Positions 26,245 through 44,765 of a DNA stretch of 64,000 nucleotides are shown piece by piece (the first letter of the stretch is position 1; each line of letters opens with the position of its first letter). Made by a program: the position numbers and the translations under genes. Source of the DNA: Mariniflexile gromovii (GTDB taxonomy: Bacteria; Bacteroidota; Bacteroidia; Flavobacteriales; Flavobacteriaceae); the NCBI RefSeq assembly GCF_017814435.1, contig NZ_JAGJCB010000009.1, positions 1 to 64,000 on the forward strand, read 5' to 3'. The notes beneath the pieces are model-generated. The model did no database searches. It was not told the DNA's origin and worked only from the letters and a program-made list of their open reading frames with translations.

Positions 26245-26613
26245 CAAACATAGCTTTTTTTTTAAATTAAACCACAAAATTTTAATAAAATCGATAAAGT
26301 GTTGTTAGATATTAGATTATTAACTTATCGTGTAATATTTAGTGTGCAACTTTAAAAGTTTTGTCGGCTTTCTTAAAAAATATTATTACATAATATCATA
26401 ATATATAGATTACAAAACTCAAAATATTAGACTAAAGTTATAATAGAATTAATTTTAGATATAAATATTTCGCCTTTAAATTATTAAGTTGCACAATTAC
26501 ATCAGAGTTTTAATCCAAGACAATCTTGAAAAAGAAGAAATAAAAGCAATGAATATGTTAAAGATTAAAACAGTCCTTATTCTGTACTTATTCTGTACTA
26601 TGTACAATAAAAA

Positions 26614-26639
26614 AAGCCTCTACATTTCTGTAAAGGCTT
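26614..26639 (-). terminator. Hairpin terminator next to the tRNA-Met fragment
   Basis: Arms AAGCCTCTACA (26614-26624) and TGTAAAGGCTT (26629-26639) pair with one G-T wobble around TTTC. Read on the minus strand it follows the 3' end of the tRNA sequence by about 11 bp, as expected for the terminator of the original tRNA-Met gene. Confidence 0.7.
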
Positions 26640-26650
26640 GATTTTTCTAG

Positions 26651-26694
26651 TAGCGGGAACTGGGTTCGAACCAATGACCTTCGGGTTATGAGCC
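26651..26694 (-). other. 3' fragment of an initiator-like tRNA-Met; putative left attachment site
   Basis: The complement of this stretch starts GGCTCATAACCCGAAGGTC and ends CAGTTCCCGCTA. It holds the anticodon loop CTCATAA (anticodon CAT), the 3' side of the anticodon stem CCCGA as in initiator tRNAs, a T-arm with GGTTCGAACCC, and the acceptor 3' strand. The 5' half of the tRNA is missing: sequence after 26694 is unrelated AT-rich DNA. This is the usual scar at one end of an element that integrates into the 3' end of a tRNA gene. The geometry predicts an intact tRNA-Met on the minus strand at the right end of the element, beyond 64000. Confidence 0.8.
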
Positions 26695-27006
26695 TAAAGA
26701 TTACAGAATCAATTTTAATCAAATTACCTCAAAATCAATTAGTTATGCTATTGGTAATTTTGTTCAACACCAATTAAACCATATAAAATCAAATAATTCT
26801 GTACCTATTCTGTACCCATTTTTGAATTATTTTTTTTATCTTTATACTAACCTAAAAGACATTGTAAAGTATAGTTGAAATAGGCATTGACCTAAAATGT
26901 ACAACAGAATATTAGCACTATTATTTTACGCTTACAAACACATATTCTGTACCCATTTTTTGAATTATTTAAATGACACCAAATACTAATTATAAAAACA
27001 AGGCTT

Positions 27007-28338
27007 ATGTCATCCATAAAAATTGTAATTCGTAAAAACAAACTGCGTAAAGATGGTACTGTACCATTGGCATTAAGAATTAGCAAAGATTATAAAACAA
27101 ACTATAGCTTTATAGGTATATATATCTATGAAAAGGATTGGGATGAAGTTAAAGGAAAAGTGAAACGAACACACCCTAATTCTCAAAAAATCAATAATTT
27201 TTTATTGAAAAAATTGACTGAAGCTAATGATATTTCTTTTGAAGTAAATGACAGAATTTCTAGTAAAGAAATGAAAAAAAAGGTAATCGGGCCAGGGGGT
27301 CAAAAATCCTTTTTTTCAGTCGCTGGTGAACGGATAGAAACTAAATATAATCGAGGCACATTCTCTGTTGCAAAGTCAGAATTGTCCATCCTTTATAATT
27401 TAGAAGAGTTTATTACTTTAAAACGTTCGTTAAATAAATCAGAAATAATTAACGGTATAAAAAATCGCAGGAAGGAACGTATAAGTAATGGTCGAAAAGC
27501 TGAATATTCTTTTATAGATGCAGTTGCCTATTTTAAGAAAAACCAAAAACTCAATTTTCAAGATATAGATGAAGTTTTTATTAAAAAATATAAAACATTT
27601 TGCATTACCTACCTGGGTCATAAAACCCGAACAATAACTAATCAACTTATTTTTATCCGTACCCTTTTCAATATCGCTATCAAAGAAAATGTCATTGATA
27701 TTAAATTTTATCCCTTTGCCAATGAAAAAGAAAAAATTAAGATAGGCTCTAGCCATAAAATAGGACTGACTATAGAAGAGATAGAACGTATTGAAAATTT
27801 GGAATTAGAAAAATGGTCTTCAATTTGGCATACACATAATGTATGGCTTGTAGCCTTCTATTTTGCTGGGATTCGTATTTCAGATATTGTACAATTAAAA
27901 TGGTCTGACTTTAAAGATAATCGTTTGTTCTATGTAATGAACAAGAATGAAAAACCTTTAAGCTTAAAAATCCCTGACAAAGCAGCTGCTATATTAAAGT
28001 TCTATAAAAATGAAAGTAATCAAAATAATGGTTATGTATTCCCGTTTTTACGGAATGCTGATTGCAGCAATGCTGAAGATATTTTTATAAAAACGAGAAA
28101 TGCCACCAAATTGTTCAATAAGTTTTTAAAACGTATTGCTCTACTTTGCGATATTGATAAAAATCTATTTAACCATATTGCAAGACATAGCTTTGGAAAC
28201 ATAGCCGGGGACAAGATTAATCCATTAATGCTCCAGAAATTGTACCGCCACAGCGATTTAAAAACAACATTAAATTATCAGGCTAATTTTATTCATAAGG
28301 ATACCGATGATGCTTTAGATAGTGTTGTTAATTTTTAA
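27007..28338 (+). CDS. Tyrosine recombinase / integrase of the element
   Basis: A 443-residue phage-integrase-family protein. An N-terminal arm-binding-like region (IKIVIRKNKLRKDGTVPLALRI) comes first, then a SAM-like core-binding domain (about 165-255) and a catalytic domain. Catalytic residues visible: Arg in FYFAGIRISDIVQLKW, His-x-x-Arg in HIARHSFG, a further His in LYRHSDLKTT and the nucleophile Tyr in TLNYQAN. It sits 312 bp from the tRNA-Met fragment and points away from it, the usual place for the integrase of a tRNA-targeting element. It belongs to a different subgroup from the decayed recombinase at 28893-29238, judging from the C-terminal residues. Confidence 0.92.
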   Translation: MSSIKIVIRKNKLRKDGTVPLALRISKDYKTNYSFIGIYIYEKDWDEVKGKVKRTHPNSQKINNFLLKKLTEANDISFEVNDRISSKEMKKKVIGPGGQKSFFSVAGERIETKYNRGTFSVAKSELSILYNLEEFITLKRSLNKSEIINGIKNRRKERISNGRKAEYSFIDAVAYFKKNQKLNFQDIDEVFIKKYKTFCITYLGHKTRTITNQLIFIRTLFNIAIKENVIDIKFYPFANEKEKIKIGSSHKIGLTIEEIERIENLELEKWSSIWHTHNVWLVAFYFAGIRISDIVQLKWSDFKDNRLFYVMNKNEKPLSLKIPDKAAAILKFYKNESNQNNGYVFPFLRNADCSNAEDIFIKTRNATKLFNKFLKRIALLCDIDKNLFNHIARHSFGNIAGDKINPLMLQKLYRHSDLKTTLNYQANFIHKDTDDALDSVVNF

Positions 28339-29397: not shown

Positions 29398-29727
29398 ATG
29401 AGAAGAGATGTATTTCAAGCCATAGCAGACCCCACGAGAAGAGAAATCATAGGACTTCTAGCAAACAACCCCATGAACCTAACAAGCGTTACAGAAAACT
29501 TCAATATCAGTCAACCCGCCATTTCAAAACACATGAAAATACTCATAGAATGTGGTTTAATAAGTGTTGAAAAACAAGGAAGGGAACGCTATTGTGAAGT
29601 TAAATTAGATTCTTTAAATGAAGTTGAAGAATGGTTGGCACCTTTTAGGAAAATGTGGGAACAACGCTTTGACCAATTAGACCAACTCCTAATAAAAATG
29701 CAATCAAAATCAAAAAACGAACAGTAA
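29398..29727 (+). CDS. ArsR/SmtB-family transcriptional regulator
   Basis: A 109-residue winged-helix protein. It starts MRRDVFQAIADPTRREIIGL and has the recognition helix ISQPAISKHMKIL (about residues 37-49), followed by the wing VEKQGRERYCEV. No metal-site CxC motif is present, so it is of the non-metal (SdpR/YgaV-like) type commonly found beside AHSA1/SRPBCC genes. It begins a co-directional run of about twenty genes, 11 bp before the first SRPBCC gene. Two ATAAC-N6-GTTAT palindromes precede it, so it probably represses itself and at least the first genes of the run until a small molecule releases it. Confidence 0.9.
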   Translation: MRRDVFQAIADPTRREIIGLLANNPMNLTSVTENFNISQPAISKHMKILIECGLISVEKQGRERYCEVKLDSLNEVEEWLAPFRKMWEQRFDQLDQLLIKMQSKSKNEQ

Positions 29728-29738
29728 TTATTTATCAC

Positions 29739-30701
29739 ATGAAAAACGCAACCCTTTTTAAGAAAGATTTAAGCAACAAAAAACTTCACATAACCCGAAA
29801 ATTCAACGCCCCTTTAAAATCCGTTTGGAGCGCTTGGACAGAACCAGAAATTTTAGACCAATGGTGGGCGCCAAAACCCTATAAAGCCATCACTAAATCC
29901 ATGGATTTTAGCGAAGGTGGTTTTTGGCATTACTATATGTTAAGTCCAGAAGGAGAAAAACATTGGTGTCGTGTTGATTATTTGAAGATTGAAGAAAACT
30001 CCCGTTTTTCTGCAAAAGATGCTTTTTGTGATGAAAAAGGTATTCCTAATGAAGAATTCCCTAAAATGACTTGGAACAATCGGTTTGAAACTAACGAAGA
30101 TTCCACTGAAGTGAAAATTGAAATTTCATTTGACAACGTTGAAGATATTCAAAAAATTATAGAAATGGGCTTCAAGGAAGGATTTACCGCTGCTCTTGAA
30201 AATCTAGATAATTACATTCAGCAAAAATTCAAATTAAGAAACGAGTTAAAAACCAATAATAACCCAAGAGTAACTACCTATCTTAATTTTCCAGGAAATA
30301 CCGAGGAAGCCTTCAATTTTTACAAGTCGGTTTTTAAAACAGAGTTTAGTGGTAAAGGCATTCAACGGTTTGGTGATATTCCTGCTGAATCTGGACACCC
30401 TCCAGTTTCAGAATCCATTAAAGAAATGGTTTTACATGTAGAGTTGCCAATTCTTGGAGGACATGTACTTATGGCAACCGATGCCCCAAAAGAAATGGGC
30501 TTTACTTTAAACCAAGGAAACAATATGCACATTTGCCTTGAACCTGATTCTAGAGAAGAAACACAGCGGTTATTTAATGCACTTTCAGAAGGAGGAAACA
30601 TTACTATGCCTTTAGAAGACATGTTCTTTGGTTCTTTTTTCGGAGAATGTTCTGACAAATATGAGATTAATTGGATGTTTAATTTTAAAAATACAATCTA
30701 A
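29739..30701 (+). CDS. SRPBCC (AHSA1-like) - VOC (PhnB-like) fusion protein
   Basis: A 320-residue cytoplasmic fusion. Residues about 14-165 are an AHSA1-type SRPBCC domain (ITRKFNAPLKSVWSAWTEP, then QWWAPK) with a hydrophobic ligand cavity in the family. Residues about 178-318 are a PhnB-like glyoxalase-fold (VOC) domain (TTYLNFPGNTEEAFNFYKSV). Each usually occurs as a separate protein. The domains are joined by a short basic linker around residue 170. The gene is 11 bp downstream of the ArsR gene. Such proteins are thought to bind or convert small hydrophobic molecules; the substrate is unknown. Confidence 0.85.
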   Translation: MKNATLFKKDLSNKKLHITRKFNAPLKSVWSAWTEPEILDQWWAPKPYKAITKSMDFSEGGFWHYYMLSPEGEKHWCRVDYLKIEENSRFSAKDAFCDEKGIPNEEFPKMTWNNRFETNEDSTEVKIEISFDNVEDIQKIIEMGFKEGFTAALENLDNYIQQKFKLRNELKTNNNPRVTTYLNFPGNTEEAFNFYKSVFKTEFSGKGIQRFGDIPAESGHPPVSESIKEMVLHVELPILGGHVLMATDAPKEMGFTLNQGNNMHICLEPDSREETQRLFNALSEGGNITMPLEDMFFGSFFGECSDKYEINWMFNFKNTI

Positions 30702-30714
30702 AGAATTTTGAACT

Positions 30715-31203
30715 ATGGAACTATCAAAAAATCAAGAAGTGAACATAATCAAGCTATTCGATGCTCCTGTAGAATTGGTTTGGAAAGCTTGGACAGATGC
30801 TGAATTATTGATGAAATGGTATGCACCAAATGGCTGTAAAATTCATTTTAAAAATATTGAAATTGAAACAGGTGGAAAGTTCCATTCGTGCATTTCGAAT
30901 CCTGAATATGGCGATTGTTGGTGTATTGGTGAATACAAAGAAATTGTACCGAATTCGAAAATTGTATTTACAATGATTAACGCAGATGAAAAAGGCAATC
31001 CCATAGATCCTACCGAAATTGGAATGGATCCCGATTGGCCAGGGGAAACACTTGTTACCATCACTTTCCAAAAAGAAAATACTAAAACAAGAATGGAATT
31101 GCATCAAACGGTTTCTCAAGAATTAGCTAAAAAGACGGGCGCCTATCCTAGCTGGTTACAAATGTTAACTAAGATGCAATTGTTTCTCCATCAAAAAAAT
31201 TAG
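30715..31203 (+). CDS. SRPBCC (AHSA1-like) protein
   Basis: A 162-residue single-domain SRPBCC protein. It starts with the family signature of a hydrophobic strand and APVELVWKAWTDAELLMKWYAP, then GGKFHSC and the C-terminal helix WLQMLTKMQLFL. It lies 13 bp after the fusion gene and 1 bp before the hydrolase gene, so it is co-transcribed. No signal peptide. The family covers small-molecule binding and Hsp90 co-chaperone-like proteins; nothing here identifies a ligand. Confidence 0.85.
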   Translation: MELSKNQEVNIIKLFDAPVELVWKAWTDAELLMKWYAPNGCKIHFKNIEIETGGKFHSCISNPEYGDCWCIGEYKEIVPNSKIVFTMINADEKGNPIDPTEIGMDPDWPGETLVTITFQKENTKTRMELHQTVSQELAKKTGAYPSWLQMLTKMQLFLHQKN

Positions 31204-31204
31204 A

Positions 31205-32098
31205 ATGAAAAAGACAAGCTTTTACTTAGTATTATTAGTACTTATTCTATTCTCGTGCAATGCCACAAAAAATAAAATTGAAAGAAATCAAATGAAAGCA
31301 ACTGAAAATAATCCCTCTAGTTTTATGGAAGTAAATGGGCTAAAAATGTACTATGAAGTTCACGGACAAGGCAATCCATTGGTTTTAATTCACGGTGGTG
31401 GTTCTACAATTCAAACGACTTTTGGAAGAATTTTAGCTACACTGGCAAAAACGAATAAAGTAATTGCTGTCGAGATGCAAGCTCACGGGCATACGGCTGA
31501 CCGAGATACGCCACTCGCATTTGAGCAAGATGCTGATGATATTGCCTCATTGCTTCAGCAACTCAATATTAAAAAAGCATCCATTTTTGGTTTCAGTAAT
31601 GGAGCAAGTACAACGCTTCAATTTGCCATTCGACATCCAGAAATGACCCATAAAATTATTGTAGCATCTACATTTTATAAAAAATCAGGCGCTCCTGATT
31701 GGTTTTGGGATATGATGAGTAAACCCTCATTTGAAAGTATGCCACAAATTTACAAAGATGAATTTCTAAAAATAAACCCAGATACCATAGCACTTCATCA
31801 AATGTATAAAAGAGATGTACAAAGAATGCAAACTTTTACGAACATTTCAGAGGAGCAAATAAAATCCATCAAAGTACCTACTTTAATCGTTATTGGAGAC
31901 ACGGATGTTGTTACTCCTGAACACGCCATTGAAATGCAAAAATTTATTCCAAATTCTGAATTAGCAATTGTTCCAGGTGGTCACGGCACATATATGGGAG
32001 AAATAACCACATTAAAACCAAATTATCAAGAAACTGACTTTGTTATCATTCCATTGATAAATAATTTCTTAGCCAAAGGAAATGATAAAAATGAATAG
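31205..32098 (+). CDS. Alpha/beta-hydrolase, lipoprotein
   Basis: A 297-residue lipoprotein with lipobox LILFSC (Cys 18). The alpha/beta-hydrolase core starts about residue 41 with the oxyanion motif LVLIHGGGST. The nucleophile Ser131 is in GFSNGAS, the acid is probably in VIGDTDVVTPEHA and the His in PGGHGTYM. Annotation systems often call this class hydrolase or haloperoxidase-like; the substrate is unknown. It starts 1 bp after the SRPBCC stop, but unlike its cytoplasmic neighbours it is exported, so it would deal with something at the cell envelope. Confidence 0.85.
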   Translation: MKKTSFYLVLLVLILFSCNATKNKIERNQMKATENNPSSFMEVNGLKMYYEVHGQGNPLVLIHGGGSTIQTTFGRILATLAKTNKVIAVEMQAHGHTADRDTPLAFEQDADDIASLLQQLNIKKASIFGFSNGASTTLQFAIRHPEMTHKIIVASTFYKKSGAPDWFWDMMSKPSFESMPQIYKDEFLKINPDTIALHQMYKRDVQRMQTFTNISEEQIKSIKVPTLIVIGDTDVVTPEHAIEMQKFIPNSELAIVPGGHGTYMGEITTLKPNYQETDFVIIPLINNFLAKGNDKNE

Positions 32099-32148
32099 TT
32101 TTTAAAACCTTTAAAAGCATTCAAATAATTAACAAACTAAAAATAATT

Positions 32149-32535
32149 ATGGAAACTAAAAAAAAATCTAAAGCAATTGTATGGATATCATACATTCTAC
32201 AAGGAATTATAGTGTTAATGTTCTTAATGGGAGCCTTTATGAACCTTTCACAAAATGAAGAAGCTATTAAAGGAGCAATCGCTATGGGATATCCTAGAGA
32301 AACTATGCTCTATTTAGGCATTGTTCAACTTATTGCTATCATTTTATATGCTATTCCTAGAACAGTAACCATTGGTGCTATCCTCATAACAGGCTGGCTT
32401 GGTGGTGCAGTGGCAACACACGTTATTCACAAAGATCCCATATTCAATCTTTTTTTTCCAGTGATTTTTGGAATTGTTGTATGGGGAAGTATTTGGTTGC
32501 GAAATAACAAACTAAAAGCATTGCTGTCCAATTAA
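32149..32535 (+). CDS. DoxX-like integral membrane protein
   Basis: A 128-residue protein with four predicted membrane segments (about 9-29, 45-66, 70-90 and 97-117), matching DoxX/DoxX-like proteins. The residues between helices 1 and 2 (NLSQNEEAIKGAIAMGYPRE) are the typical DoxX-like loop. DoxX proteins are linked to respiratory or redox stress in some bacteria, but the activity of this type is not known. A second DoxX-like gene lies at 34075-34455 in the same run. Confidence 0.8.
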   Translation: METKKKSKAIVWISYILQGIIVLMFLMGAFMNLSQNEEAIKGAIAMGYPRETMLYLGIVQLIAIILYAIPRTVTIGAILITGWLGGAVATHVIHKDPIFNLFFPVIFGIVVWGSIWLRNNKLKALLSN

Positions 32536-32577
32536 AGCAAGGAATCAACTCAGTAAAACTTAATAAAAAACAAAATA

Positions 32578-33030
32578 ATGACGGAGAATAAATTATTAAG
32601 AATGGACAATATTGGTATCGTGGTAGAATCGCTAGACAATGCTATTTCATTCTTCTCGGAGATAGGATTAAAACTCGAAGGAAGAGGAACTATAGAAGGT
32701 GAATGGGCTGGTCGTGTTACTGGACTAAGTTCTCAAAAGGTAGAAATAGCAATGATGGTTACTCCTGATGGCCATAGTCGAATTGAACTTTCAAAATTTA
32801 TAACACCTCACATTATATCAGATCACAGAAAGGCACCCGTGAACGCTCTTGGTTACCTACGTGCTATGTTCACTGTGGAAGACATAGATGACATGGCATC
32901 TAGACTTATTAAACAAGGCGCTGAACTCGTGGGCGAAATCGTTCAATACGAGAACTTCTATAGACTTTGCTACATTCGAGGAACAGAAGGACTTCTTATA
33001 GGGTTAGCAGAAGAAATTGGTAAAAGATAG
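32578..33030 (+). CDS. VOC-family (glyoxalase-fold) protein
   Basis: A 150-residue single VOC protein: RMDNIGIVVESLDNAISFFS at the start, an internal GEWAGRVTGLSSQKVEIAM and the C-terminal half MFTVEDIDDMASRLIKQGAE. The family includes glyoxalase I, dioxygenases and antibiotic-binding resistance proteins. Metal ligands are not obvious, so binding rather than metal catalysis is possible. It sits between DoxX-like and SRPBCC genes, 42 bp from each. Confidence 0.85.
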   Translation: MTENKLLRMDNIGIVVESLDNAISFFSEIGLKLEGRGTIEGEWAGRVTGLSSQKVEIAMMVTPDGHSRIELSKFITPHIISDHRKAPVNALGYLRAMFTVEDIDDMASRLIKQGAELVGEIVQYENFYRLCYIRGTEGLLIGLAEEIGKR

Positions 33031-33072
33031 CATTCATTTTCATTTAATTATAAAACTAAAAGTGACTTAGCC

Positions 33073-33564
33073 ATGTCAACAAAAACTAAGATAACAGCAG
33101 AACCCAACAAACAAGAACTCTTTATAACCAGAGAATTTGATGCGCCAAGGGAATTAGTATTCAAAGCATTTACTACACCTGAAATACTGTTGCAATTTTA
33201 TGCCCCTTTTGGAATAAAAATGAAATTCAATTATGCCAATTTCCAAAGCGGTGGTTCGTACAGTTGGACACATTCTGATGGAGCAGATAAAATTTATTGC
33301 ATGTTCAAAGGAGTAATTCACGAAATTTTGCCACCTCAAAGAATGATTCAAACTGTTGAAATGGAAAACCAGCCAAAAGGCGGACAAGTGTGTTTAGAAA
33401 TTTTCACTTTTGAGGAATTAGGCAACAGCAAAACAAAACTTATTGTACAAAATGTATTTCGTTCGATTGAAGATAGAGATGAAATGGTACAAAGTGGATT
33501 TGAAAGCGGTGTGGTTGCTATTTTTGAGCAATTGGATATATTAATTAAAGAAAATAAAATTTAA
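33073..33564 (+). CDS. SRPBCC (AHSA1-like) protein
   Basis: A 163-residue SRPBCC protein starting with KQELFITREFDAPRELVFKA. This start is almost shared with the protein at 35070 (KQELFIIREFDAPRELLYKA), so the two are recent duplicates of each other. The middle keeps the ILPPQRMIQTVEME strand and the C-terminal helix. It is 42 bp from the next SRPBCC gene. Ligand unknown. Confidence 0.85.
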   Translation: MSTKTKITAEPNKQELFITREFDAPRELVFKAFTTPEILLQFYAPFGIKMKFNYANFQSGGSYSWTHSDGADKIYCMFKGVIHEILPPQRMIQTVEMENQPKGGQVCLEIFTFEELGNSKTKLIVQNVFRSIEDRDEMVQSGFESGVVAIFEQLDILIKENKI

Positions 33565-33606
33565 GCAGATAAGTCACATTTGATTAATTTATAAAACAAA
33601 TAAATC

Positions 33607-34068
33607 ATGTCAAAAACAACCATAAAAGCAGCACCCAACAGACAAGAAGTTTTTATTGAAAGAGAATTTGACAGTCCTGTAGAATTCCTTTTTAAAGCTC
33701 ATGTAGAACCAGAACTGGTAGCACAATGGATGGGTACTAATGTATTGAAACTAGAAAACAAAAAAAACGGTGGTTATCATTATGAAACAACCGATCCTCA
33801 AGGCAACAAACATAATTTTCATGGCACTTTTCATGAAATTCTTCCTAATAAAAGAATTATTAGAACTTTTGAAATGGAAAACACTTCTTTTCCTACTCAA
33901 CTGGAATTTTTTGAATTTGAAAAACTAAGTAAAACAAAAAGTAAACTAACAATGCAAATGGTATATAAATCGGTAGCGGATAGAGATAATATGCTCAGAT
34001 TACCTTTTGAATTTGGTCTCAATAGAGCACATGATAAATTACAAGAAGTTATAAATCACTTAAAATAA
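33607..34068 (+). CDS. SRPBCC (AHSA1-like) protein
   Basis: A 153-residue SRPBCC protein starting RQEVFIEREFDSPVEFLFKA with the motif FHEILPNKRIIRTFEMEN. It belongs to the same subgroup as the proteins at 33073 and 35070 and is the second of the tandem paralogues. It is 6 bp before the second DoxX-like gene, suggesting translational coupling. Confidence 0.85.
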   Translation: MSKTTIKAAPNRQEVFIEREFDSPVEFLFKAHVEPELVAQWMGTNVLKLENKKNGGYHYETTDPQGNKHNFHGTFHEILPNKRIIRTFEMENTSFPTQLEFFEFEKLSKTKSKLTMQMVYKSVADRDNMLRLPFEFGLNRAHDKLQEVINHLK

Positions 34069-34074
34069 GAAACG

Positions 34075-34455
34075 ATGACAAAAAGAAATAAAATCATTTA
34101 TTGGATTGCAACTATATGGTTAGCCTTAGGAATGACATCCACAGGAATCGTGCAATTAATTAAGATGGAAGAAGAAGTAAACATGATGGAACATTTAGGA
34201 TACCCTATTTATTTTTTAAGCCTTTTAGGGGTTTGGAAAATTTTAGGTGTCATAGCTATTTTAATTCCTAAGATGCCTTTGTTAAAAGAATGGGCTTATG
34301 CTGGTTTCTTCTTTGCAATGTCAGGAGCTATATACTCGCATATAGTGCTTAGCGACGATTTAGTGGCACTTTTTGGTCCTCTTTTGTTAATCGTTTTAAC
34401 AATTATTTCCTGGTATTTTAGACCTGAAAGCAGAATATTAATTGTAAAAAAATAA
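34075..34455 (+). CDS. DoxX-like integral membrane protein
   Basis: A 126-residue protein with four membrane helices (about 9-28, 43-64, 73-91 and 96-114) of the DoxX-like type. The loop after helix 1 (IKMEEEVNMMEHLGYPIYF) is typical. It follows an SRPBCC gene by 6 bp and precedes the YdeI-like gene by 13 bp. The pairing of SRPBCC and DoxX-like genes occurs twice in this run. Confidence 0.8.
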   Translation: MTKRNKIIYWIATIWLALGMTSTGIVQLIKMEEEVNMMEHLGYPIYFLSLLGVWKILGVIAILIPKMPLLKEWAYAGFFFAMSGAIYSHIVLSDDLVALFGPLLLIVLTIISWYFRPESRILIVKK

Positions 34456-34468
34456 AGAGTAATTGAGC

Positions 34469-35050
34469 ATGAATTCAAAAGTAGATACCTTTTTAGATAA
34501 AGCTAAGAAATGGCAAGCAGAAATGAAACTATTGAGAAAAATTGTTCTGGGTTCCACTTTAACCGAAGATTATAAATGGATGCACCCTTGTTATACTTAT
34601 CAAGGAAAGAACGTTGTGCTGATACATGGGTTTAAAGAGTATTGTGCATTACTTTTCCACAAAGGAGCACTTTTAAAGGACACTGATAACATCCTAATTC
34701 AACAAACAGAAAATGTACAAGCAGCACGTCAAATTCGATTTACTAATTCACAACAAATCATAGATTTAGAGTCAACCATTAAATCCTATATTTTTGAAGC
34801 CATCGAAATTGAAAAATTGGGTTTAGAAGTTCCTTTCAAAAAAAACAAAGAATTTGATGTGCCTGAAGAATTTCAAACCGTACTTGAAAACAATTCCGAA
34901 GTAAAAAAAACTTTTGAAGCTTTAACCCCTGGTAGACAAAGAGGCTATTTACTTCACTTTTCCCAACCCAAACAATCTAAAACCCGCATTTCTAGAATTG
35001 AAAAATGCATTCCACAGATTATTGCAGGTAAAGGATTAAATGATAAATAA
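34469..35050 (+). CDS. YdeI/OmpD-associated-like (DUF1801-type) protein
   Basis: A 193-residue protein with a DUF1801-type N-terminal domain (about 1-110: EDYKWMHPCYTYQGKNVVLIHGF, LLFHKGALLKD) and a C-terminal helical part with LTPGRQRGYLLHFSQPKQSK, the bacteriocin-protection YdeI/OmdA motif. I take the ATG at 34469 rather than the TTG at 34463 in the same frame. The function is not well defined. The C-terminus overlaps no neighbour and the next gene starts 19 bp later. Confidence 0.8.
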   Translation: MNSKVDTFLDKAKKWQAEMKLLRKIVLGSTLTEDYKWMHPCYTYQGKNVVLIHGFKEYCALLFHKGALLKDTDNILIQQTENVQAARQIRFTNSQQIIDLESTIKSYIFEAIEIEKLGLEVPFKKNKEFDVPEEFQTVLENNSEVKKTFEALTPGRQRGYLLHFSQPKQSKTRISRIEKCIPQIIAGKGLNDK

Positions 35051-35069
35051 TAACTTAAAAATTAAAATC

Positions 35070-35567
35070 ATGCCAAACAAAACTATAATTTCTGCCGAAC
35101 CCAATAAACAAGAACTTTTTATAATTAGAGAGTTTGATGCACCTAGAGAATTATTGTACAAAGCTTTCACTGAACGTGAATTGCTAACCCAATGGTTGGG
35201 ACCTTGTACCTTAAAAATGTCTATTGATACATATGAAAACAAGTCCCATGGTGCATGGCGGTTTATCCATGCAGATGAAGAGGGAAATGAATATGCCTTT
35301 AACGGTACCATTCACGAAGTATGCCCACCGGAGAGAATCATTAGAACGTTTGAATTTGAAGGACTGCCCATGAAAGGTGAAGTTTCTTTAGAATTTGCCA
35401 CTTTTGAAGCATTACCTAACAACAGAAGCAAATTAACAATTCAAGCTATCTATAAATCTGTAGCCAGTAGAGATGGCCATGTCAATTCGGGGATGGAACA
35501 TGGTGTGGTCGATTCGCACAATGCATTAGACGAACTTTTAATGAATTTAAAAAACAATCATGACTAA
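35070..35567 (+). CDS. SRPBCC (AHSA1-like) protein
   Basis: A 165-residue SRPBCC protein. I use the ATG at 35070 because the residues from there match the start of the paralogue at 33073; the frame is open from 35040, but that would add ten unmatched residues overlapping the previous gene. Motifs: FDAPRELLYKAFTERELLTQW and VCPPERIIRTFEFE (each shortened here to its core). It overlaps the next gene by 8 bp, so the two are probably translationally coupled. Confidence 0.82.
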   Translation: MPNKTIISAEPNKQELFIIREFDAPRELLYKAFTERELLTQWLGPCTLKMSIDTYENKSHGAWRFIHADEEGNEYAFNGTIHEVCPPERIIRTFEFEGLPMKGEVSLEFATFEALPNNRSKLTIQAIYKSVASRDGHVNSGMEHGVVDSHNALDELLMNLKNNHD

Positions 35568-35937
35568 AATAAATATCCAAGCAGATTGCAACAATGCTCC
35601 AAAAAAGGAATTTTTGAAAAATTTCAATATAGCTTTTGCTACAGCCGATACCGATTTTTTATTGAATCATGTAGATGAGGATATTCAATGGACTATTTAT
35701 GGGGATAAAAAAATTGAAGGAAAAGCACATTTTGAAAAAGCGGTACTTGAAATGAAAAACTATGTGGCAGACGAGATGGGTATATTTACCATTATCACCC
35801 ATGGAGCAGAAGCAGCCGTAAACGGAAGCATGAAAATGAAAGATAAAAGTTATGCGTTTTGTGATATTTATCAGTTTAAAAGTGCTGGAAGTAAAATCAT
35901 TACAAAAATGTATTCTTACGTTATCAAAGAAAATTAA
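35560..35937 (+). CDS. SnoaL/NTF2-like small protein
   Basis: A 125-residue alpha+beta cone-fold protein with the SnoaL-like pattern: an N-terminal helix FLKNFNIAFATADTDFLLNH, the strand IQWTIYGDKKIEGKAHF, and a C-terminal CDIYQFKSAGSKIITKMYSY. Proteins of this fold bind small molecules or act as isomerases, cyclases or hydrolases. It overlaps the SRPBCC stop by 8 bp and so is part of the same transcript. No specific substrate can be named. Confidence 0.8.
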   Translation: MTKINIQADCNNAPKKEFLKNFNIAFATADTDFLLNHVDEDIQWTIYGDKKIEGKAHFEKAVLEMKNYVADEMGIFTIITHGAEAAVNGSMKMKDKSYAFCDIYQFKSAGSKIITKMYSYVIKEN

Positions 35938-35956
35938 AGCTTAAAAACAAGGAAGT

Positions 35957-36511
35957 ATGGCCACATTAAAAGCTTTTACGTTTATAACCTTAAATGGGTT
36001 CTATAAAAATACCGACAACGATATCAGTTGGCACCAACATGGAAAAGAAGAAGCTAAATATTCAGAAGAAAACTTAAAGTCTGAAAACATTTTACTTCTT
36101 GGAAGGCATACGTATCAAATGATGGAAAGTTTCTGGACATCGCAAATGGCTTATGATAATTTCCCTGAAGTAGCAATAGGCATGAACAATTCTAAAAAAG
36201 TAGTTGTTTCAAGTTCATTAGAAAAAGTGAATTGGAAAAACACATCGTTATTAAAAGGAAATCTGATTGATGAGATAAAAGAATTGAAGAAAACGTCAAA
36301 GCACAACATCACTATTTTAGGAAGCGGCTCTCTTGTAACCCAATTAACCAATGTGGGTTTGATAGATTCATACGAAATCATGCTAGACCCCATTGCTATA
36401 GGACAAGGAACAAGTATTTTCGATGGCGTTTCAGGCACATTGCACTTGAAATTGATAGCATGTAAAAAACTAAAAAGCGGAACAGGAATACTTACCTATA
36501 CCAAACTTTAA
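35957..36511 (+). CDS. Dihydrofolate-reductase-like (RibD C-terminal domain) protein
   Basis: A 184-residue protein of the RibD_C/DHFR-like family: start KAFTFITLNGFYKNTDND, the NADPH-binding LLLGRHTYQMM, the Gly-rich ITILGSGSLVTQL and the C-terminal IMLDPIAIGQGTSIFDG. Its similarity to true DHFR is in fold only. Proteins of this group are found in many bacteria without a known substrate. A second, rather different member is at 41875-42408. Confidence 0.85.
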   Translation: MATLKAFTFITLNGFYKNTDNDISWHQHGKEEAKYSEENLKSENILLLGRHTYQMMESFWTSQMAYDNFPEVAIGMNNSKKVVVSSSLEKVNWKNTSLLKGNLIDEIKELKKTSKHNITILGSGSLVTQLTNVGLIDSYEIMLDPIAIGQGTSIFDGVSGTLHLKLIACKKLKSGTGILTYTKL

Positions 36512-36523
36512 ATTTATATTATA

Positions 36524-36961
36524 ATGGAAAACAATAATGTAATTGTAGAACGTGTATTCAATGCACCTCTCCCACTCGTTTGGAAAGCCATAACTGAAAA
36601 AGATTTAATGAAACAATGGTACTTCGAGCTAAGCGATTTTAAACCGAAAATAGATTTTGAATTTCAATTCTACGGACAAGGATTAAAAGGGGAAACCTAT
36701 CTTCATAAATGTAAGATTCTAGAAATTGAGCCTTTAAAAAAGTTAAAACATAGTTGGACTTATGAAGGCTTTGAAGGATACTCAACCGTTACTTTTGAAC
36801 TTTCTGAAGAAAGCATCAATAAAACCAAAGTAAAATTAACACACGAAGGACTGGCAACTTTCCCTGTAAACAACCCTGATTTTGTAAAAGAGAATTTTGT
36901 AAATGGTTGGACTTACATTATCAATACAGCATTAAAGGATTTTTTGGAATCAAAACAATAA
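36524..36961 (+). CDS. SRPBCC (AHSA1-like) protein
   Basis: A 145-residue SRPBCC protein: VERVFNAPLPLVWKAITEKD and QWYFELSDFKPKIDFEFQF, ending in the WTYIINTALKDFLE helix. It resembles the family subgroup in which the ligand pocket is open (START/AHSA1 type). It lies 12 bp after the DHFR-like gene and 23 bp before arr. Confidence 0.85.
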   Translation: MENNNVIVERVFNAPLPLVWKAITEKDLMKQWYFELSDFKPKIDFEFQFYGQGLKGETYLHKCKILEIEPLKKLKHSWTYEGFEGYSTVTFELSEESINKTKVKLTHEGLATFPVNNPDFVKENFVNGWTYIINTALKDFLESKQ

Positions 36962-36984
36962 ACATGTATCTACAATAAAACAAC

Positions 36985-37434
36985 ATGCAAACATCAAACA
37001 AAAATCAAACAGCCAATCAAACCGCTCATACTCCTTTTAACCAAACTTATTTTCATGGTACTAAAGCCCACTTAAAAATTGGAGAATTAATTGAAGTGGG
37101 TTATAACTCAAATTTTGGGCAAAGAAAAAATGCTAAATACATTTTCTTAACGTCAACGTTGGATGCTGCCATTTGGGGTGCTGAACTTGCTTCTGGAGAA
37201 GGAAAAGAACGAATTTATTTAGTAGAACCAACAGGGGAAATTGAAGATGATCCTGACTTAACCGATAAAAAATTCCCAGGAAATCCAACAAAATCGTATC
37301 GTTCCATACATCCGTTTAAAGTTGTCGGAGAAGTCACAATTTGGCAAAGTCATCCTTCCGAACAAATACAAGCCATGAAAGAGGCACTAGAAAAATTAAA
37401 GGAACAAGGTATTAATTCACTGAATGACTATTAA
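36985..37434 (+). CDS. arr: NAD+-dependent rifampin ADP-ribosyltransferase
   Basis: A 149-residue protein, the usual length for Arr with a short N-terminal extension. It has the family pattern FHGTKAHLKIGELIEVG, then YIFLTSTLDAAIWGAELASG, IYLVEPTGEIEDDPDLTDKK (with the DDP motif) and NPTKSYRSIHPFKVVGEV. Arr transfers ADP-ribose to the C23 hydroxyl of rifampin and inactivates it. The conserved His in FHGTK and the Asp pair are present. It lies at the end of a tight block (23 bp after an SRPBCC gene) and is a plausible resistance cargo gene of the element. Activity cannot be judged from sequence alone. Confidence 0.92.
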   Translation: MQTSNKNQTANQTAHTPFNQTYFHGTKAHLKIGELIEVGYNSNFGQRKNAKYIFLTSTLDAAIWGAELASGEGKERIYLVEPTGEIEDDPDLTDKKFPGNPTKSYRSIHPFKVVGEVTIWQSHPSEQIQAMKEALEKLKEQGINSLNDY

Positions 37435-37540
37435 AGACCAAAAAGGTTTAGCGGTGACTCACTCATTTTTACTATGAACAATCAAACGGAATAACAACCA
37501 AAATAAACAAAAAATAAAGTGCTACTTTAAAAATACTATT

Positions 37541-38012
37541 ATGAAAAATTTTTCTCAATCAGATTATACAACAACTTACTCAGTTAAAAAAAAATTCAGA
37601 AAATGTTTACAAAGCAATAACGCAACAAATTGACAAATGGTGGACAGAAGATTTCTTAGGGAGTTCTAAAAAAGTAAATGAAGAATTTACCATTCGCTTT
37701 GGCACAACGTTTAAAACGTTGAAAGTTACTGAGCTTACACCCAATAAAAAAGTAGTTTGGACATGTATTGACACTTTAATTGATATTCCAGAGTTACCAA
37801 ATAATACAGAATGGAAAGGCACTGAAATTGTTTGGAATTTAGATAACAACGCTACAAATACTAAAATTTCATTAACTCATATAGGATTGACTCCTAAAGT
37901 AAAATGTTATAACATTTGCGAAAAAGGTTGGGTGTCTTTTTTAGATAGTCTAAAGCTGTTTGTAGAAACAGGAAAAGGATCCCCTTTTCAGAACAAACAA
38001 GAGAACATATAA
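37541..38012 (+). pseudogene. SRPBCC (AHSA1-like) gene with a frameshift in an A9 run
   Basis: From the ATG at 37541 the frame reads MKNFSQSDYTTTYSVKKK and then runs into a stop at about 37634. After the run of nine A at 37586-37594, shifting by one base restores an SRPBCC sequence (VYKAITQQIDKWWTEDFLG, then FGTTFKTLKVTELTPNKK to KGSPFQNKQENI). Removing one A would give one open protein of about 156 residues. This may be a real inactivation, a sequencing slip in the homopolymer or slippage-dependent expression. The internal ATG at 37719 alone would give only a C-terminal part. Confidence 0.75.
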
Positions 38013-38084
38013 TTATAAAATAGTACGATTAGTCACGCAACCTAACTCGATTTTAAACATCTAATATTATAATAAATCAAAACC

Positions 38085-38879
38085 GTGAAAGAAATAGTGC
38101 TTACTGGTGGCACAGGGAATTTAGGTCAAAAAATGGTAAAATTACTCATTGACAAAAAGTACAATCCCACAGTGTTAACTTCAAAAAACAATATGAATAA
38201 AATAAATGATGTTCATACTGTAGTTGCAGATATCACCAATAAAGATAGCTTAAAAGACTTATTTAATGATACAGATCTTATTATACATTGCGCGAGCAAC
38301 CCTAGAAATTCTGATGAAGTGGATGTAAAAGGGACTCAAAACATTTTACAAAGTATTAATTTGCTAAAACCCCCACATCTTATTTATATTTCCATTGTTG
38401 GTGTAGATAAAAGTGACTGGCCTTATTATCAAAATAAACATAAAGTAGAACGCTTGATTAAAGACTCAGGTATTCCTTATACTATTTTCAGAATCACGCA
38501 ATTTCATGACTTTGTTTTACATAGAATTGTAAAAACATTAGATACAAACCCAACGGGTATTTTTAAACTCCCAAAAAATATGCGTTTTCAATCCATCGAT
38601 ACAAATGAAGCTGCGAAATGTATTGTAGAAACCATAAATGATATTAAGAGCCTAAAACATACTACTCTTAACATTGGAGGACCAGAAATATTGTCAATTA
38701 AAGACATGGCAAAAACCTATTTAAAGGAATGTAAACGAAACGAGATCATTGAAGAATTCGACTCGGAGAATCCCTTCTATAAAATTTTCACTACAGGAAT
38801 AAATATATGTCCCGAGAATAAAAATGGGAGCATACATTGGGAAACATATCTTAAAATAAATAAGGTGCTAAATACTTAA
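38085..38879 (+). CDS. NmrA-like NAD(P)-binding protein (atypical SDR)
   Basis: A 264-residue Rossmann-fold protein with the dinucleotide motif LTGGTGNLGQKMV (GxxGxxG). It goes on with CASNPRNSDEVDVKGTQNIL and SIVGVDKSDWPYYQNKHKVE, in which a YxxxK-like pair is degenerate (YYQNKHK). This fits the NmrA/atypical SDR group, which often senses NAD(P) rather than catalyses. The start codon is GTG at 38085; no better ATG upstream exists. It is 20 bp from the AraC gene. Confidence 0.85.
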   Translation: MKEIVLTGGTGNLGQKMVKLLIDKKYNPTVLTSKNNMNKINDVHTVVADITNKDSLKDLFNDTDLIIHCASNPRNSDEVDVKGTQNILQSINLLKPPHLIYISIVGVDKSDWPYYQNKHKVERLIKDSGIPYTIFRITQFHDFVLHRIVKTLDTNPTGIFKLPKNMRFQSIDTNEAAKCIVETINDIKSLKHTTLNIGGPEILSIKDMAKTYLKECKRNEIIEEFDSENPFYKIFTTGINICPENKNGSIHWETYLKINKVLNT

Positions 38880-38899
38880 TTTAAAAAACACTAAGTTTA

Positions 38900-39709
38900 A
38901 TGAAATACCTAACTATACCACCGCCACCTTCTTTATCCAAATATGTGCGTTTTTTTTGGATGCTTGAAGGTGAGGCATCTATAGAACACCCATATATCCA
39001 CAGGGCCATGGCAGATGGTTCAGCAGAATTGGTATTTCATTACAACGGTATTTTTGATGAATTAATTTCAAATGATAAAACCATTAAATCATTCACATCT
39101 GGTCTTGATGCACAATCCGATAAAGTAAAACGCTTTTCCATTAACCAAAGTTTTGGGATATTCGGCGTTTATTTATTTCCGTATGCCATTCCCAAATTGT
39201 TTTCAATACCTGCTTCAGAACTCACAAACCACATGCTCGATTTAAAAACATTGTTGGGTAAAAATGAAAATGGTTTAGAAGAAAAAATCATGTTGGCTAA
39301 AAACACCAATGAACGCGTAGAAATACTATCCACATTTTTAGAGCAGCAACTTTTAAAATCACACCTAGCGCCACCAGGAGTTTTTGAAACTATCAATGAT
39401 ATTATTCAAACAAAAGGAACAACAAATATAGATGCTTTGTCTGAACGTAATTTTTTATCAAGACGGCAATTTGAGCGTAATTTTAAACGGTTTTCGGGTT
39501 TTAGTCCAAAAGTATTTTCACGCATCATGCGTTTTCAAAATGTACTTCAAGATTTAGGAAACAAAAAAACATTAACTCAAATTGGTTTAGATGCGGGGTA
39601 TGCAGACCAATCACATTTTATTAGAGAATTCAAAATGTTTTCGGGCTACACACCCAAAGAGTACTTTTTAAATAAAGGAGAAGGAACGGAATGGCGAGAA
39701 ACTAAATAA
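38900..39709 (+). CDS. AraC-family transcriptional regulator with DUF6597-like N-terminal domain
   Basis: A 269-residue regulator. The N-terminal sensor part (YLTIPPPPSLSKYVRFFWML to about residue 150) matches the DUF6597-type domain. The C-terminal AraC double helix-turn-helix (about 160-260) contains RNFLSRRQFERNFKRFSGFS and the signature DAGYADQSHFIREFKMFSGY. It sits inside the SRPBCC run, so it might control genes near it. A separate operator cannot be identified. Confidence 0.88.
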   Translation: MKYLTIPPPPSLSKYVRFFWMLEGEASIEHPYIHRAMADGSAELVFHYNGIFDELISNDKTIKSFTSGLDAQSDKVKRFSINQSFGIFGVYLFPYAIPKLFSIPASELTNHMLDLKTLLGKNENGLEEKIMLAKNTNERVEILSTFLEQQLLKSHLAPPGVFETINDIIQTKGTTNIDALSERNFLSRRQFERNFKRFSGFSPKVFSRIMRFQNVLQDLGNKKTLTQIGLDAGYADQSHFIREFKMFSGYTPKEYFLNKGEGTEWRETK

Positions 39710-39783
39710 TGTCGCAACTGTGCAATTTTCATAACTACCTGTTTAGTAATATTGTATCGTTAAAACTTTAAAAATATAAACAC

Positions 39784-40158
39784 ATGAAATTACCTAACGG
39801 ACACCAAGCAGTAATGCCTTATCTTATGCTAAATAAGGCTAATGAATTTTATGCATTTACAAAAGCAGTATTTAATGCTGAAGAAACTTTAAGGAAACTA
39901 CGTGATGATGGAAAAACAATCATGCATTCCGAAATTCAAATTAAAGGAAACACCATTATGTATTGCGAAACCACCGAAGATTGGAAAACCCAAACTGCCA
40001 ATCTTTTTATTTATGTAGAAGATGCCGATGCAACTTTTAAAAAGGCAATAGATGCTGGAGCAGAAGTCATCATGCCATTAAACAATCAAGATTATGGAAG
40101 AACTTGTGGGGTTAAAGACCCGTTTGGAAATACTTGGTGGATAACAGCAACAAAATAA
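39784..40158 (+). CDS. VOC-family (PhnB/glyoxalase-like) protein
   Basis: A 124-residue single VOC protein: VMPYLMLNKANEFYAFTKAV, MHSEIQIKGNTIMYCE and the ending GVKDPFGNTWWITATK, all features of the PhnB-like subgroup. It lies 74 bp after the AraC gene. Substrate unknown. Confidence 0.85.
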   Translation: MKLPNGHQAVMPYLMLNKANEFYAFTKAVFNAEETLRKLRDDGKTIMHSEIQIKGNTIMYCETTEDWKTQTANLFIYVEDADATFKKAIDAGAEVIMPLNNQDYGRTCGVKDPFGNTWWITATK

Positions 40159-40185
40159 TAAATCTCTTAATTACCTAATTGAAAA

Positions 40186-40476
40186 ATGGTAGAAGTATTT
40201 AAAACCAATATCACAAAGCAGAAGCAAGCAAAACAAGTTCTTGAAAAGCTAAAAAAAGCATTTCCAGATTATAAAATCAATTTCGACCTTGAAGATTGCG
40301 ATAACATCCTTAGGGTAGAAAACCCAAAAGGCACAATCAACAATACTCGTGTTATTGAATTGGTTAGTGATATTGGTTTATATATAGAAACACTATTAGA
40401 TGAACTTTCTATAGTTGATAAATCTGAGCACTATCCTGAGAAAGGTATGAATTTTAAAATTTTAGCTAAAAACTAA
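40186..40476 (+). CDS. Conserved hypothetical protein, 96 residues
   Basis: A small cytoplasmic protein of mixed alpha/beta appearance: VEVFKTNITKQKQAKQVLEK, then KINFDLEDCDNILRVE. The pattern beta-alpha-beta-beta-alpha suggests a ferredoxin-like fold similar to heavy-metal-associated domains but without a CxxC motif. I recall similar proteins in flavobacteria without a known function. It follows the VOC gene by 27 bp and is the last gene of the ArsR-led co-directional run before a 210-bp gap. Confidence 0.65.
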   Translation: MVEVFKTNITKQKQAKQVLEKLKKAFPDYKINFDLEDCDNILRVENPKGTINNTRVIELVSDIGLYIETLLDELSIVDKSEHYPEKGMNFKILAKN

Positions 40477-40686: not shown

Positions 40687-41457
40687 ATGAAAAAGTATTC
40701 AGTGAAAGATTTATCAAAATTAGCTGGTGTTAGTGTTCGTACATTACATCACTATGATGATATTGGGTTACTAAAACCAGCAATCCGTACCGAGGCCAAG
40801 TATAGATTGTATGGAGAAAACGAATTGTTGAAATTGCAGCAAATCCTTTTCTATAAAGAACTCGAGTTTACCCTTCAAGAAATTATCGACATTTTAGAAG
40901 ATCCTGATTTTGACTTGATTCAAGCGCTTAAAAATCATAAACGGGCCCTTAAAACCAAACAACAGCAAATTTCTTTAATGCTGAATACAATTGAAAAAAC
41001 AATGTCTAATTTAAAAAACAAAACAATGATTACAGACAATGAATTGTATGAAGGATTCTCCAAAGAAGAAAGAGATGAAATCCGAAATGAAGCCATTGAA
41101 AAATATGGTAACAATACCATTAAAACAAGTGAGAAGTATTTAAAAAAACTTTCAAAAGAACAGCTTGAACAACTGAAAAAGGAGCAACAAGACATATTTA
41201 AAAACTTGTTCAGAATGTCTTCAAACAGTCCAAAAAATGAAGAAGTTCAATTAGAAATTGCACGCCACTACTCCAATATTAGAAAATTTTGGGGAACAGA
41301 TGGTGTGTCAGATGCTCAAAAAAAAGAATATCGAGGATTAGGCAAACTTTATGCTGAAGATCCTAGATTTACGCTTGTAGATGGTAAACCACAACCTGAG
41401 TTTGCTAAATTTCTCTATGATGCTATGCGCTTTTTTGCAAATTCACAGTTAGATTAA
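40687..41457 (+). CDS. MerR-family regulator with TipAS antibiotic-recognition domain
   Basis: A 256-residue protein. Residues 2-70 are a MerR DNA-binding domain (YSVKDLSKLAGVSVRTLHHY, then DIGLLKPA), followed by a coiled coil (about 75-115), and a TipAS domain (about 120-250) with EGFSKEERDEIRNEAIEKYG. TipAS domains bind antibiotics or other cyclic molecules and switch on transcription of the regulator and resistance genes. It is separated from the previous run by 210 bp and from the next gene by 417 bp, so it is probably its own unit. Confidence 0.9.
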   Translation: MKKYSVKDLSKLAGVSVRTLHHYDDIGLLKPAIRTEAKYRLYGENELLKLQQILFYKELEFTLQEIIDILEDPDFDLIQALKNHKRALKTKQQQISLMLNTIEKTMSNLKNKTMITDNELYEGFSKEERDEIRNEAIEKYGNNTIKTSEKYLKKLSKEQLEQLKKEQQDIFKNLFRMSSNSPKNEEVQLEIARHYSNIRKFWGTDGVSDAQKKEYRGLGKLYAEDPRFTLVDGKPQPEFAKFLYDAMRFFANSQLD

Positions 41458-42790: not shown

Positions 42791-42945
42791 ATTAATTTAC
42801 TTAGCCCATTTTTAAAATTTTATAGCATTTTAAAGTTTAGTTTGTTTTACGCAATAAGTCGATTTTGTGTCCACTTATTTCAGGAAGGAAAAGAAGAAAG
42901 ACCTATTCTACGCACATGTTGAGCTGCTAAAATTTCTTAATCAAA

Positions 42946-43296
42946 CTATTCTTTTTGCAATAATAATTTTTCTATGGCATCATAACTTGTTAATTGTGCG
43001 TCGGGTAAAATACTATCGGCTAAGTCAAGTATTGTGGCTATAGTCAATTCCTTTGAGCAATTGTTCAGCCTAGGTGAAGCAAAGTCGTTCTCACTGTCCA
43101 ATGCCAAAATACATACCCGTAATAGACTTGAAATAATATAGCGCAGTTCACCATTGTCAGTTACTTCAAAGGTCACTTCCTGCATAACAGGGTTGCCCTC
43201 CCTCCTATAGTATTTACGCTCCCGTGGGTTCAATAGCCTAAAGACTGTTTCCAATATTTCCTTGTCCTTTTTATGCTTTTTGCTTTTTGTTTTCAT
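42946..43296 (-). CDS. Hypothetical protein beside the HEPN-like gene, 116 residues
   Basis: A small mainly helical protein, starting with a basic stretch (MKTKSKKHKKDKE) and a motif RLLNPRERKYYRREGNPVM. It lies 12 bp downstream of the 295-residue HEPN-like gene on the same strand and is very likely co-transcribed with it. I do not recognise a family. The pair is kept next to mobilisation genes in this window, so a role in the element, as a partner or an antidote, is possible but unproven. Confidence 0.6.
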   Translation of the reverse strand: MKTKSKKHKKDKEILETVFRLLNPRERKYYRREGNPVMQEVTFEVTDNGELRYIISSLLRVCILALDSENDFASPRLNNCSKELTIATILDLADSILPDAQLTSYDAIEKLLLQKE

Positions 43297-43308
43297 CAGC
43301 TTGGGTTT

Positions 43309-44738: not shown

Positions 44739-44765
44739 AATTGCTTAATAAAAATATACTATTAT

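Follow-up and report, generated by a model that had tools for sequence, protein, structure and literature searches.

The closest described relative of the locus treated here is the ArsR-COG3832 (ArsR-AHSA1) pair, which Makarova, Wolf and Koonin singled out in 2009 as a two-gene stress module of non-uniform distribution. In the part of their paper devoted to this pair, they describe an ArsR without metal motif, cite CalC as a self-sacrificing member of the family, and consider antibiotic resistance the most plausible role and a toxin-antitoxin (TA) function a second idea (PMC2701414). The AHSA1 domain has the Bet v 1 fold, presented in the part of the source bearing on it as a scaffold for large hydrophobic ligands (PMC2577659). 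A later account, in its portion on this pair, reports no toxicity of the Stenotrophomonas COG3832-ArsR in kill-rescue tests and mentions a Mycobacterium tuberculosis pair as reported to rank in the top ten TA systems by induction in persisters (PMC7650669). Here, we describe a 20-gene island located at positions 29398 to 40476 of a 64,000-nucleotide stretch of Mariniflexile gromovii DNA (contig NZ_JAGJCB010000009.1, positions 1 to 64,000; hereafter the window). We estimate at roughly 55% the probability that this block is one ArsR-controlled operon, in which the ArsR-COG3832 stress module would have been enlarged by gene capture into a defence against hydrophobic, antibiotic- or quinone-like molecules.

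The island and the two sites that precede it are given below; assignments come from Pfam unless another basis is named, and S1 to S7 designate the AHSA1 (SRPBCC) copies.

29345-29360 and 29371-29386 (+), two 16-bp ATAAC-N6-GTTAT palindromes, perfect matches, conserved in the congeners G005 and G001; predicted ArsR operator/promoter
29398..29727 (+), ArsR/SmtB-family regulator (Pfam HTH_5, NCBIfam HTH_metalloreg), no CxC-type metal site, Cys52 conserved
29739..30701 (+), S1, AHSA1 (SRPBCC) fused to a PhnB-type VOC domain
30715..31203 (+), S2, AHSA1 protein, not in G005
31205..32098 (+), alpha/beta-hydrolase, lipoprotein by eye, not in G005
32149..32535 (+), DoxX_2 membrane protein 1
32578..33030 (+), VOC protein
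33073..33564 (+), S3, AHSA1 protein (Pfam, tree)
33607..34068 (+), S4, AHSA1 protein with relatives in ArsR-AHSA1-DoxX(-YdeI) operons (Pfam, tree, loci)
34075..34455 (+), DoxX_2 membrane protein 2
34463..35050 (+), YdeI-type protein (DUF1801 + OmdA)
35040..35567 (+), S5, AHSA1 protein (Pfam, tree)
35560..35937 (+), weakly SnoaL-like protein of 125 amino acids (SnoaL_2, E=0.002, 19.2 bits against a cut-off of 27)
35957..36511 (+), RibD_C reductase-like ("DHFR-like") protein
36524..36961 (+), S6, AHSA1 protein (Pfam, tree)
36985..37434 (+), Arr, NAD+-rifampin ADP-ribosyltransferase (NCBIfam NF033144, PDB 2hw2), not in G005
37541..38012 (+), S7, broken AHSA1 gene whose start codon is not in the frame of its AHSA1 reading
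38085..38879 (+), NmrA-like NAD(P)-binding protein (NAD_binding_10/NmrA), remnants only in G005
38900..39709 (+), AraC-family regulator
39784..40158 (+), VOC protein
40186..40476 (+), 96-amino-acid protein with a predicted HMA/Atx1-like fold (structure model, Foldseek), no CxxC

Pfam confirms seven AHSA1/SRPBCC copies, the fusion and the broken gene included, and four VOC domains (in the fusion at 29739 and at 32578, 39784 and 42416, the last lying beyond the 20-gene block). These are the numbers of the first-pass annotation, made from the letters of the window, which had also seen one copy fused to VOC and 20 genes, nearly all in one orientation; its calls of two DoxX-like proteins and of YdeI-like, DHFR-like (RibD_C), NmrA-like, AraC and Arr proteins agree with Pfam and NCBIfam as well, and the gene content points, as it had read the composition, to small-molecule defence. 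The alpha/beta-hydrolase at 31205-32098, absent from its inventory, matches PcaD- and MenH-type models, all under their cut-offs. Its SnoaL-like call at 35560 keeps a SnoaL_2 match but one below the cut-off, and neither this protein nor the one at 40186 has any Pfam match above cut-off. Arr reaches 229.8 bits against a curated cut-off of 130 and aligns with the solved mycobacterial enzyme (E=4.2e-45). The S7 domain gives 26 bits at 37719-38012 in Pfam and 38 bits at 37596-37964 in a genome-wide profile search; its ATG at 37541 is out of frame with the AHSA1 reading, in which the TTG at 37719 is the earliest start codon. The gene reported earlier as frameshifted is indeed broken, near its 5' end, and a frameshift is the likely, not proven, cause.

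Of the 19 intergenic gaps, 16 do not exceed 50 bp, with the genes overlapping in two cases (-11 and -8), and the remaining three measure 72, 74 and 161 bp, the last counted up to the open part of S7; gaps of 1 to 75 bp, as previously given, are the rule, with the two overlaps and the 161-bp gap as exceptions. An integron cassette array was considered and rejected on integrase type and gap length, no search aimed at attC sites themselves having been made: the integrase gene at 27007 scores 27.8 bits against the cut-off of 265 of the integron integrase model, and attC sites are longer than the 16 gaps of 50 bp or less. A phage defence locus was also rejected: PADLOC was run on one neighbouring protein and nine of the 20 encoded in the island, and matched ArsR only, through Csa3/CARF-type models.

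The two palindromes, 10 bp apart and immediately upstream of arsR, are the sole perfect matches in the window, with no further perfect one inside the block. The pair occurs once in the genome of the strain and in none of 298 other sampled genomes of the family, a sample that did not include G005 and G001, which carry it; as a control, the pattern read backwards matched in two of the 299 genomes. A promoter-like pair of the Bacteroidota type (TTG at 29341, N20, TAATTTTA at 29364) occupies the same place: the first palindrome lies within its spacer and the second directly after the -7 box, and the stretch from the TTG to the arsR start codon is nearly invariant across the window, G005 and G001. 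Because the block has no second perfect site and contains two overlapping gene pairs, its natural reading would be one ArsR-repressed transcript, and the ArsR-headed unit proposed in the first-pass annotation fits these same features. Sigma-70-type promoters (59 against 59.1 expected) and terminators (5 against 6.4 expected) show no departure from expectation within the island. The classical ArsR metal-binding motif is of the CxC type; the island ArsR has Cys52 and Cys66 as its only cysteines and no such site. Where an arsR gene stands ahead of an AHSA1 gene in the fetched loci, Cys52 is present in 72 of 76 ArsRs, a conservation that offers a lead towards thiol or electrophile sensing.

The concentration of AHSA1 genes is exceptional within the family. 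The strain itself has 12 AHSA1 matches, seven of them inside about 8.2 kb, and when 12 loci were scattered at random over 4.28 Mb in 20,000 trials, no trial put more than four of them within 8.2 kb; AHSA1 clustering therefore exceeds chance. In a sample of 60 family genomes, that of the strain included, 46 of the 59 others have an AHSA1 match, with a maximum of 11 per genome. None of these 59 has more than two matches within 10 kb, and two are found within this distance in six, one case being a single broken gene counted twice. Among the 80 fetched loci (the best of at least 586), eight contain clusters of at least six genes of the families represented in the island, and one of them (L074) has ten; these counts concern the plus strand only and rely on hidden Markov models (HMMs) trained on the window. 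The block is larger than the related operons seen in this comparison.

Furthermore, the arrangement is shared within the genus, for which five other genomes (G001 to G005) were compared. In G005, 15 of the 20 island genes are collinear, with 77-100% protein identity, in the order arsR, S1-VOC, DoxX, VOC, S3, S4, DoxX, YdeI, S5, SnoaL-like, RibD_C, S6, AraC, VOC and the 96-amino-acid protein; family labels in this stretch, in the 80 loci and in the S4 loci discussed below come from HMMs built on the window and the fetched loci and are biased to the window. S2 and the hydrolase (window 30695-32129) are missing from G005, where the alignments adjoin on either side, and additional genes flank the copy: VOC, AHSA1 and DoxX upstream, two AHSA1 and a second gene of the 96-amino-acid type downstream. 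G001 has a compact form of six genes, namely arsR (94%), an AHSA1, S1 without VOC, DoxX, S6 and the 96-amino-acid protein, which begins and ends with the same genes as the window block. An order conserved nowhere had been set beforehand as the result that would speak against a functional unit; G005 retains the order, and the search for it in another flavobacterium that the first-pass annotation had called for thus yielded a collinear 15-gene copy.

The ratios of non-synonymous to synonymous divergence (dN/dS, NG86) of the 15 genes shared by the window and G005 range from 0.008 for arsR to 0.40 for the SnoaL-like gene, and all 15 are under purifying selection. Their median dS is 0.50, against 1.01 for core genes (Mann-Whitney p=1e-5), the reference being a small sample of 17 chromosomal gene pairs from three convenient regions with overlapping frames removed. 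The RibD_C-VOC pair that lies beside the island has core-like dS values (1.17 and 0.87) and is found about 20 kb from the island in G005. Since island dS is half of core dS, the island seems to have crossed as a unit between these lineages once the species had split, and the RibD_C-VOC pair seems not to have done so. The island is real, selected and probably transferred.

Its parts have distinct origins. The ArsR-AHSA1-VOC head is a widespread arrangement: ArsR is encoded directly upstream of 44 of the 58 AHSA1-VOC fusion genes in the 80 loci, some of which end at contig edges. S4-like proteins (E at most 1e-20) occur in 10 of 199 family genomes, that of the strain included, and in all nine fetched loci of other genera the corresponding gene belongs to an ArsR-AHSA1-DoxX operon, with YdeI in four and a gene of the 96-amino-acid type nearby in three; these loci are the best copy per genome, three second copies being left out. 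G001 carries an ArsR-S4-DoxX-YdeI operon separate from its short island. In a tree of 63 AHSA1 domains, the S4 proteins of the window and G005 fall together with those from operons that stand alone in G001, in Foetidibacter and in a UBA genome (100/100), and S1 and S6 each cluster with their own G005 and G001 counterparts. S7 falls in a separate clade, S2 sits on a long branch with unsure placement, and S3, S4 and S5 belong to one old group of ten rows that includes a Dawidia protein, within which an old duplication may have occurred. Because the copies belong to several old subfamilies, they are mainly captured or old genes, and recent local amplification of one SRPBCC gene was rejected on the same tree. 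The island is therefore a mosaic. Contrary to the earlier assumption, these folds do not normally occur alone: mini-operons of the types ArsR-AHSA1-VOC and ArsR-AHSA1-DoxX-YdeI recur.

The last gene of the block is also repeatedly found, as a type, beside SRPBCC and ArsR clusters. A model of its product built from five sequences (predicted local distance difference test, pLDDT, 76; final quarter poorly modelled) resembles HMA domains of the Atx1/HAH1 type (two Foldseek matches with E below 0.001, the best at 7e-4), and an HMA/Atx1-like fold is predicted with moderate confidence. The protein has no CxxC, its only cysteine lying in the conserved stretch DLEDCD (FDLEDCD).

If the block is an enlarged stress module, ArsR would occupy both palindromes at 29345-29386 and shut the promoter, until a hydrophobic, probably electrophilic or antibiotic-like molecule released it, perhaps through Cys52. 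The SRPBCC and VOC proteins would then bind or sequester such molecules or sacrifice themselves to them, modification would fall to RibD_C, NmrA and the hydrolase, DoxX would act at the membrane, and Arr would add modification of rifamycins. The captured genes would include the body of a second module (S4-DoxX-YdeI) minus its own ArsR. A quinone-like target is suggested by analogy with the mhqRED operon of Staphylococcus, whose derepression is described, in the portion of the source concerning it, as leading to resistance to quinone-like compounds, including rifampicin (PMC6798810). We also entertain, more tentatively, the idea of an ArsR-run "sponge" operon, a broad-spectrum defence that would absorb the effectors of other ArsR-AHSA1 modules under the paired operator and move between species as a unit. 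If so, different SRPBCC and VOC pockets would cover members of one chemical class, e.g. quinone-like or ansamycin-like antibiotics, with Arr as a dedicated rifamycin arm.

Several observations weigh against an operon of this kind. The regulatory block is present in three of the six genomes of the genus, G002 being without the palindrome pair, and TTG-N20-TAATTTTA type pairs are in no excess in the island (12 against 12.8 expected). DNA matches to the block are absent from G003 and G004 and short in G002. S7 is broken in the window, G005 has neither arr nor S7 and retains mere remnants of NmrA, and the differing gene content in three congeners implies no fixed machine. The lower dS of the island could partly reflect codon use. 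Finally, sensing by MhqR is not thiol-based according to the portion of the source that treats it, so the MhqR analogy lends no support to a role of Cys52 (PMC6798810).

The setting of the island in the window is that of a mobile element, with the following features.

26609..26696 (-), tRNA-Met 3' fragment and flank, element end, repeated on contig C52 at 70195-70282 and 107149-107241
27007..28338 (+), tyrosine integrase (Arm-DNA-bind_5, SAM_5; Pfam)
40687..41457 (+), TipAS-MerR regulator (Pfam), with a 93% identical copy elsewhere in the genome
41875..42790 (+), RibD_C and VOC pair (41875, 42416; Pfam), a unit separate from the island and about 20 kb off in G005
42898..50244 (-, XRE +), mobilisation module from profiles: MobC-like, MobB relaxase, BfmA/BtgA-family, SSB, DUF6876 and XRE

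The relaxase scores 373.3 bits against the MobB_relaxase cut-off of 200, and the integrase has a Phage_integrase match. With an integrase, a MobB-type relaxase and direct repeats at a tRNA end, the element has the features of an integrative mobilisable element. The three tRNA-Met fragments of contig C52 share one orientation and each lies beside a tyrosine integrase gene, an arrangement that points to elements in tandem at tRNA-Met, about 44 and 37 kb long; the first two fragments are 81% identical over 88 bp. Relatives of the mobilisation module occur at two G004 sites. The earlier placing of the island on a mobile element holds for the window. In 60 kb round the G005 copy, our own HMMs and tblastn (no Pfam scan) found no relative of the window integrase, relaxase or coupling protein; in this stretch (C1:6001-65800) the one relative, of the XRE gene, is located upstream of the island at a distance of about 15 kb. 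Spread by plasmids was rejected, as megablast gave no plasmid match to 29300-42900 and, although the fusion protein finds matches in 300 plasmid records, none covers 80% of it.

Several observations concern the surroundings. Directly upstream of the arsR promoter, 29136-29240 is a non-coding remnant that resembles by eye the C-terminus of a tyrosine recombinase. The second copy of the TipAS-MerR gene (G000 C8, L024, same genome) adjoins another ArsR-AHSA1-YdeI group. Beyond the mobilisation module on the right, region 50688-63332 carries further genes of redox type (for DUF417, zinc dehydrogenase, two MRJP/SMP-30-like proteins, MBL hydrolase, SDR, CMD, DoxX, polysaccharide deacetylase and aldehyde dehydrogenase) and AraC regulators, and a stretch of about 70-150 bp at 50311-50461 has matches in each of the five congeneric genomes and at other places in the same genome. 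The next tRNA-Met element (C52 70195-107241; L134, L135) bears stress cargo, with VOC beside Abhydrolase_2, YceI, OsmC, several hydrolases and a ferritin-like protein; its VOC and Abhydrolase_2 pair is presumably mhqE/mhqD-like, judging by family and order. A second OsmC gene, at C52 67850, lies within the element of the island. Left of the element, frames at 1319-26175 resemble by eye a polysaccharide (pectin-type) utilisation region.

Such a setting also suits a cargo heap, in which elements at a tRNA-Met hot spot gather individually useful genes that have come under one promoter by chance and act on no shared target. We consider this rather unlikely, even if it would account for the three fragments with integrases in one contig, the further redox and hydrolase cargo of the neighbouring element, the variable content between congeners, the broken S7, the TipAS copy elsewhere in the genome and the RibD_C-VOC unit found elsewhere in relatives. 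However, order and promoter are kept in two species and all 15 shared genes are under purifying selection; similar families are clustered elsewhere, with six genes or more in 8 of 80 loci under the window-trained, plus-strand counts; and the 60 kb read in G005 yielded no relative of the integrase or relaxase.

A catabolic or biosynthetic cluster acting on one aromatic or polyketide-like substrate is improbable. It would draw on SRPBCC cyclase-like, SnoaL-like, NmrA, RibD_C, hydrolase and VOC proteins, and cyclase and reductase families are indeed among the folds, as is a hydrolase with sub-cut-off resemblance to PcaD and MenH; but the Pfam matches of the block include no transporter, synthase or oxygenase, content shifts between congeners, and Arr and the regulators suit resistance better. 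Finally, an expanded TA-like addiction module, as once considered for ArsR-COG3832, is very improbable: that pair emerged from a TA-finding screen with a TA-like non-uniform distribution, as far as its description goes (PMC2701414), and an M. tuberculosis pair is reported as induced in persisters, but the Stenotrophomonas pair showed no toxicity on kill-rescue testing, according to the portion of the account on these pairs (PMC7650669), and seven different AHSA1 domains under one ArsR are unlike a pair.

The preferred reading, an ArsR-COG3832 module enlarged into a defence operon, can finally be set against known systems. The dioxygenase of mhqRED has the VOC fold. As described in the relevant portion of the source, MhqR/mhqRED shares with the island a palindromic operator with its repressor, and has dioxygenase and carboxylesterase genes, but it has a MarR-type repressor where the island regulator is ArsR-type, two effector genes and no AHSA1, RibD_C or Arr, and is an analogy only (PMC6798810). 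Integrative mobilisable elements of Bacteroidota resemble the window element in their tyrosine integrase, MobB relaxase, BfmA/BtgA, tRNA-end repeats and cargo, but the window element is composite, and its detoxification cargo is present in G005 with no relatives of the integrase or relaxase close by; arr is reported across Bacteroidetes, rarely on such elements, in the portion of the source that surveys it (PMC8492726). ArsR-AHSA1-DoxX(-YdeI) operons found on chromosomes within the same family (L142-L150) have the S4-DoxX-YdeI order of the island but stand alone with their own ArsR, whereas the island segment lies mid-operon and that ArsR is missing. The locus illustrates how small resistance-like modules merge into a long operon.

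The first-pass annotation knew of no described system of this kind; the ArsR-COG3832 module is one, and an open-literature search for such a cluster or module returned papers on it only. The role of the common pair was left open in 2009, in the part of that paper on it (PMC2701414), and a later test, as far as the corresponding part tells, recorded no toxicity (PMC7650669). In this locus, seven different AHSA1 domains have come together naturally under a single repressor whose operator is predicted, and Arr is the one effector of known chemistry in it, so that a single-reporter inducer screen could name the compound class. Like the described module, the island has an ArsR without CxC-type site, 11 bp before the AHSA1 gene 29739-30701, and the module's non-uniform, expanded distribution and suspected antibiotic resistance, as far as that description goes, fit as well (PMC2701414). 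The module is a gene pair, whereas the island comprises one ArsR and 19 further genes, with seven AHSA1 of several subfamilies, VOC, DoxX, YdeI, RibD_C and Arr. Because it is a 20-gene unit and not a pair, the island is best classed as an expanded variant of the ArsR-COG3832 module and not as a plain member of it.

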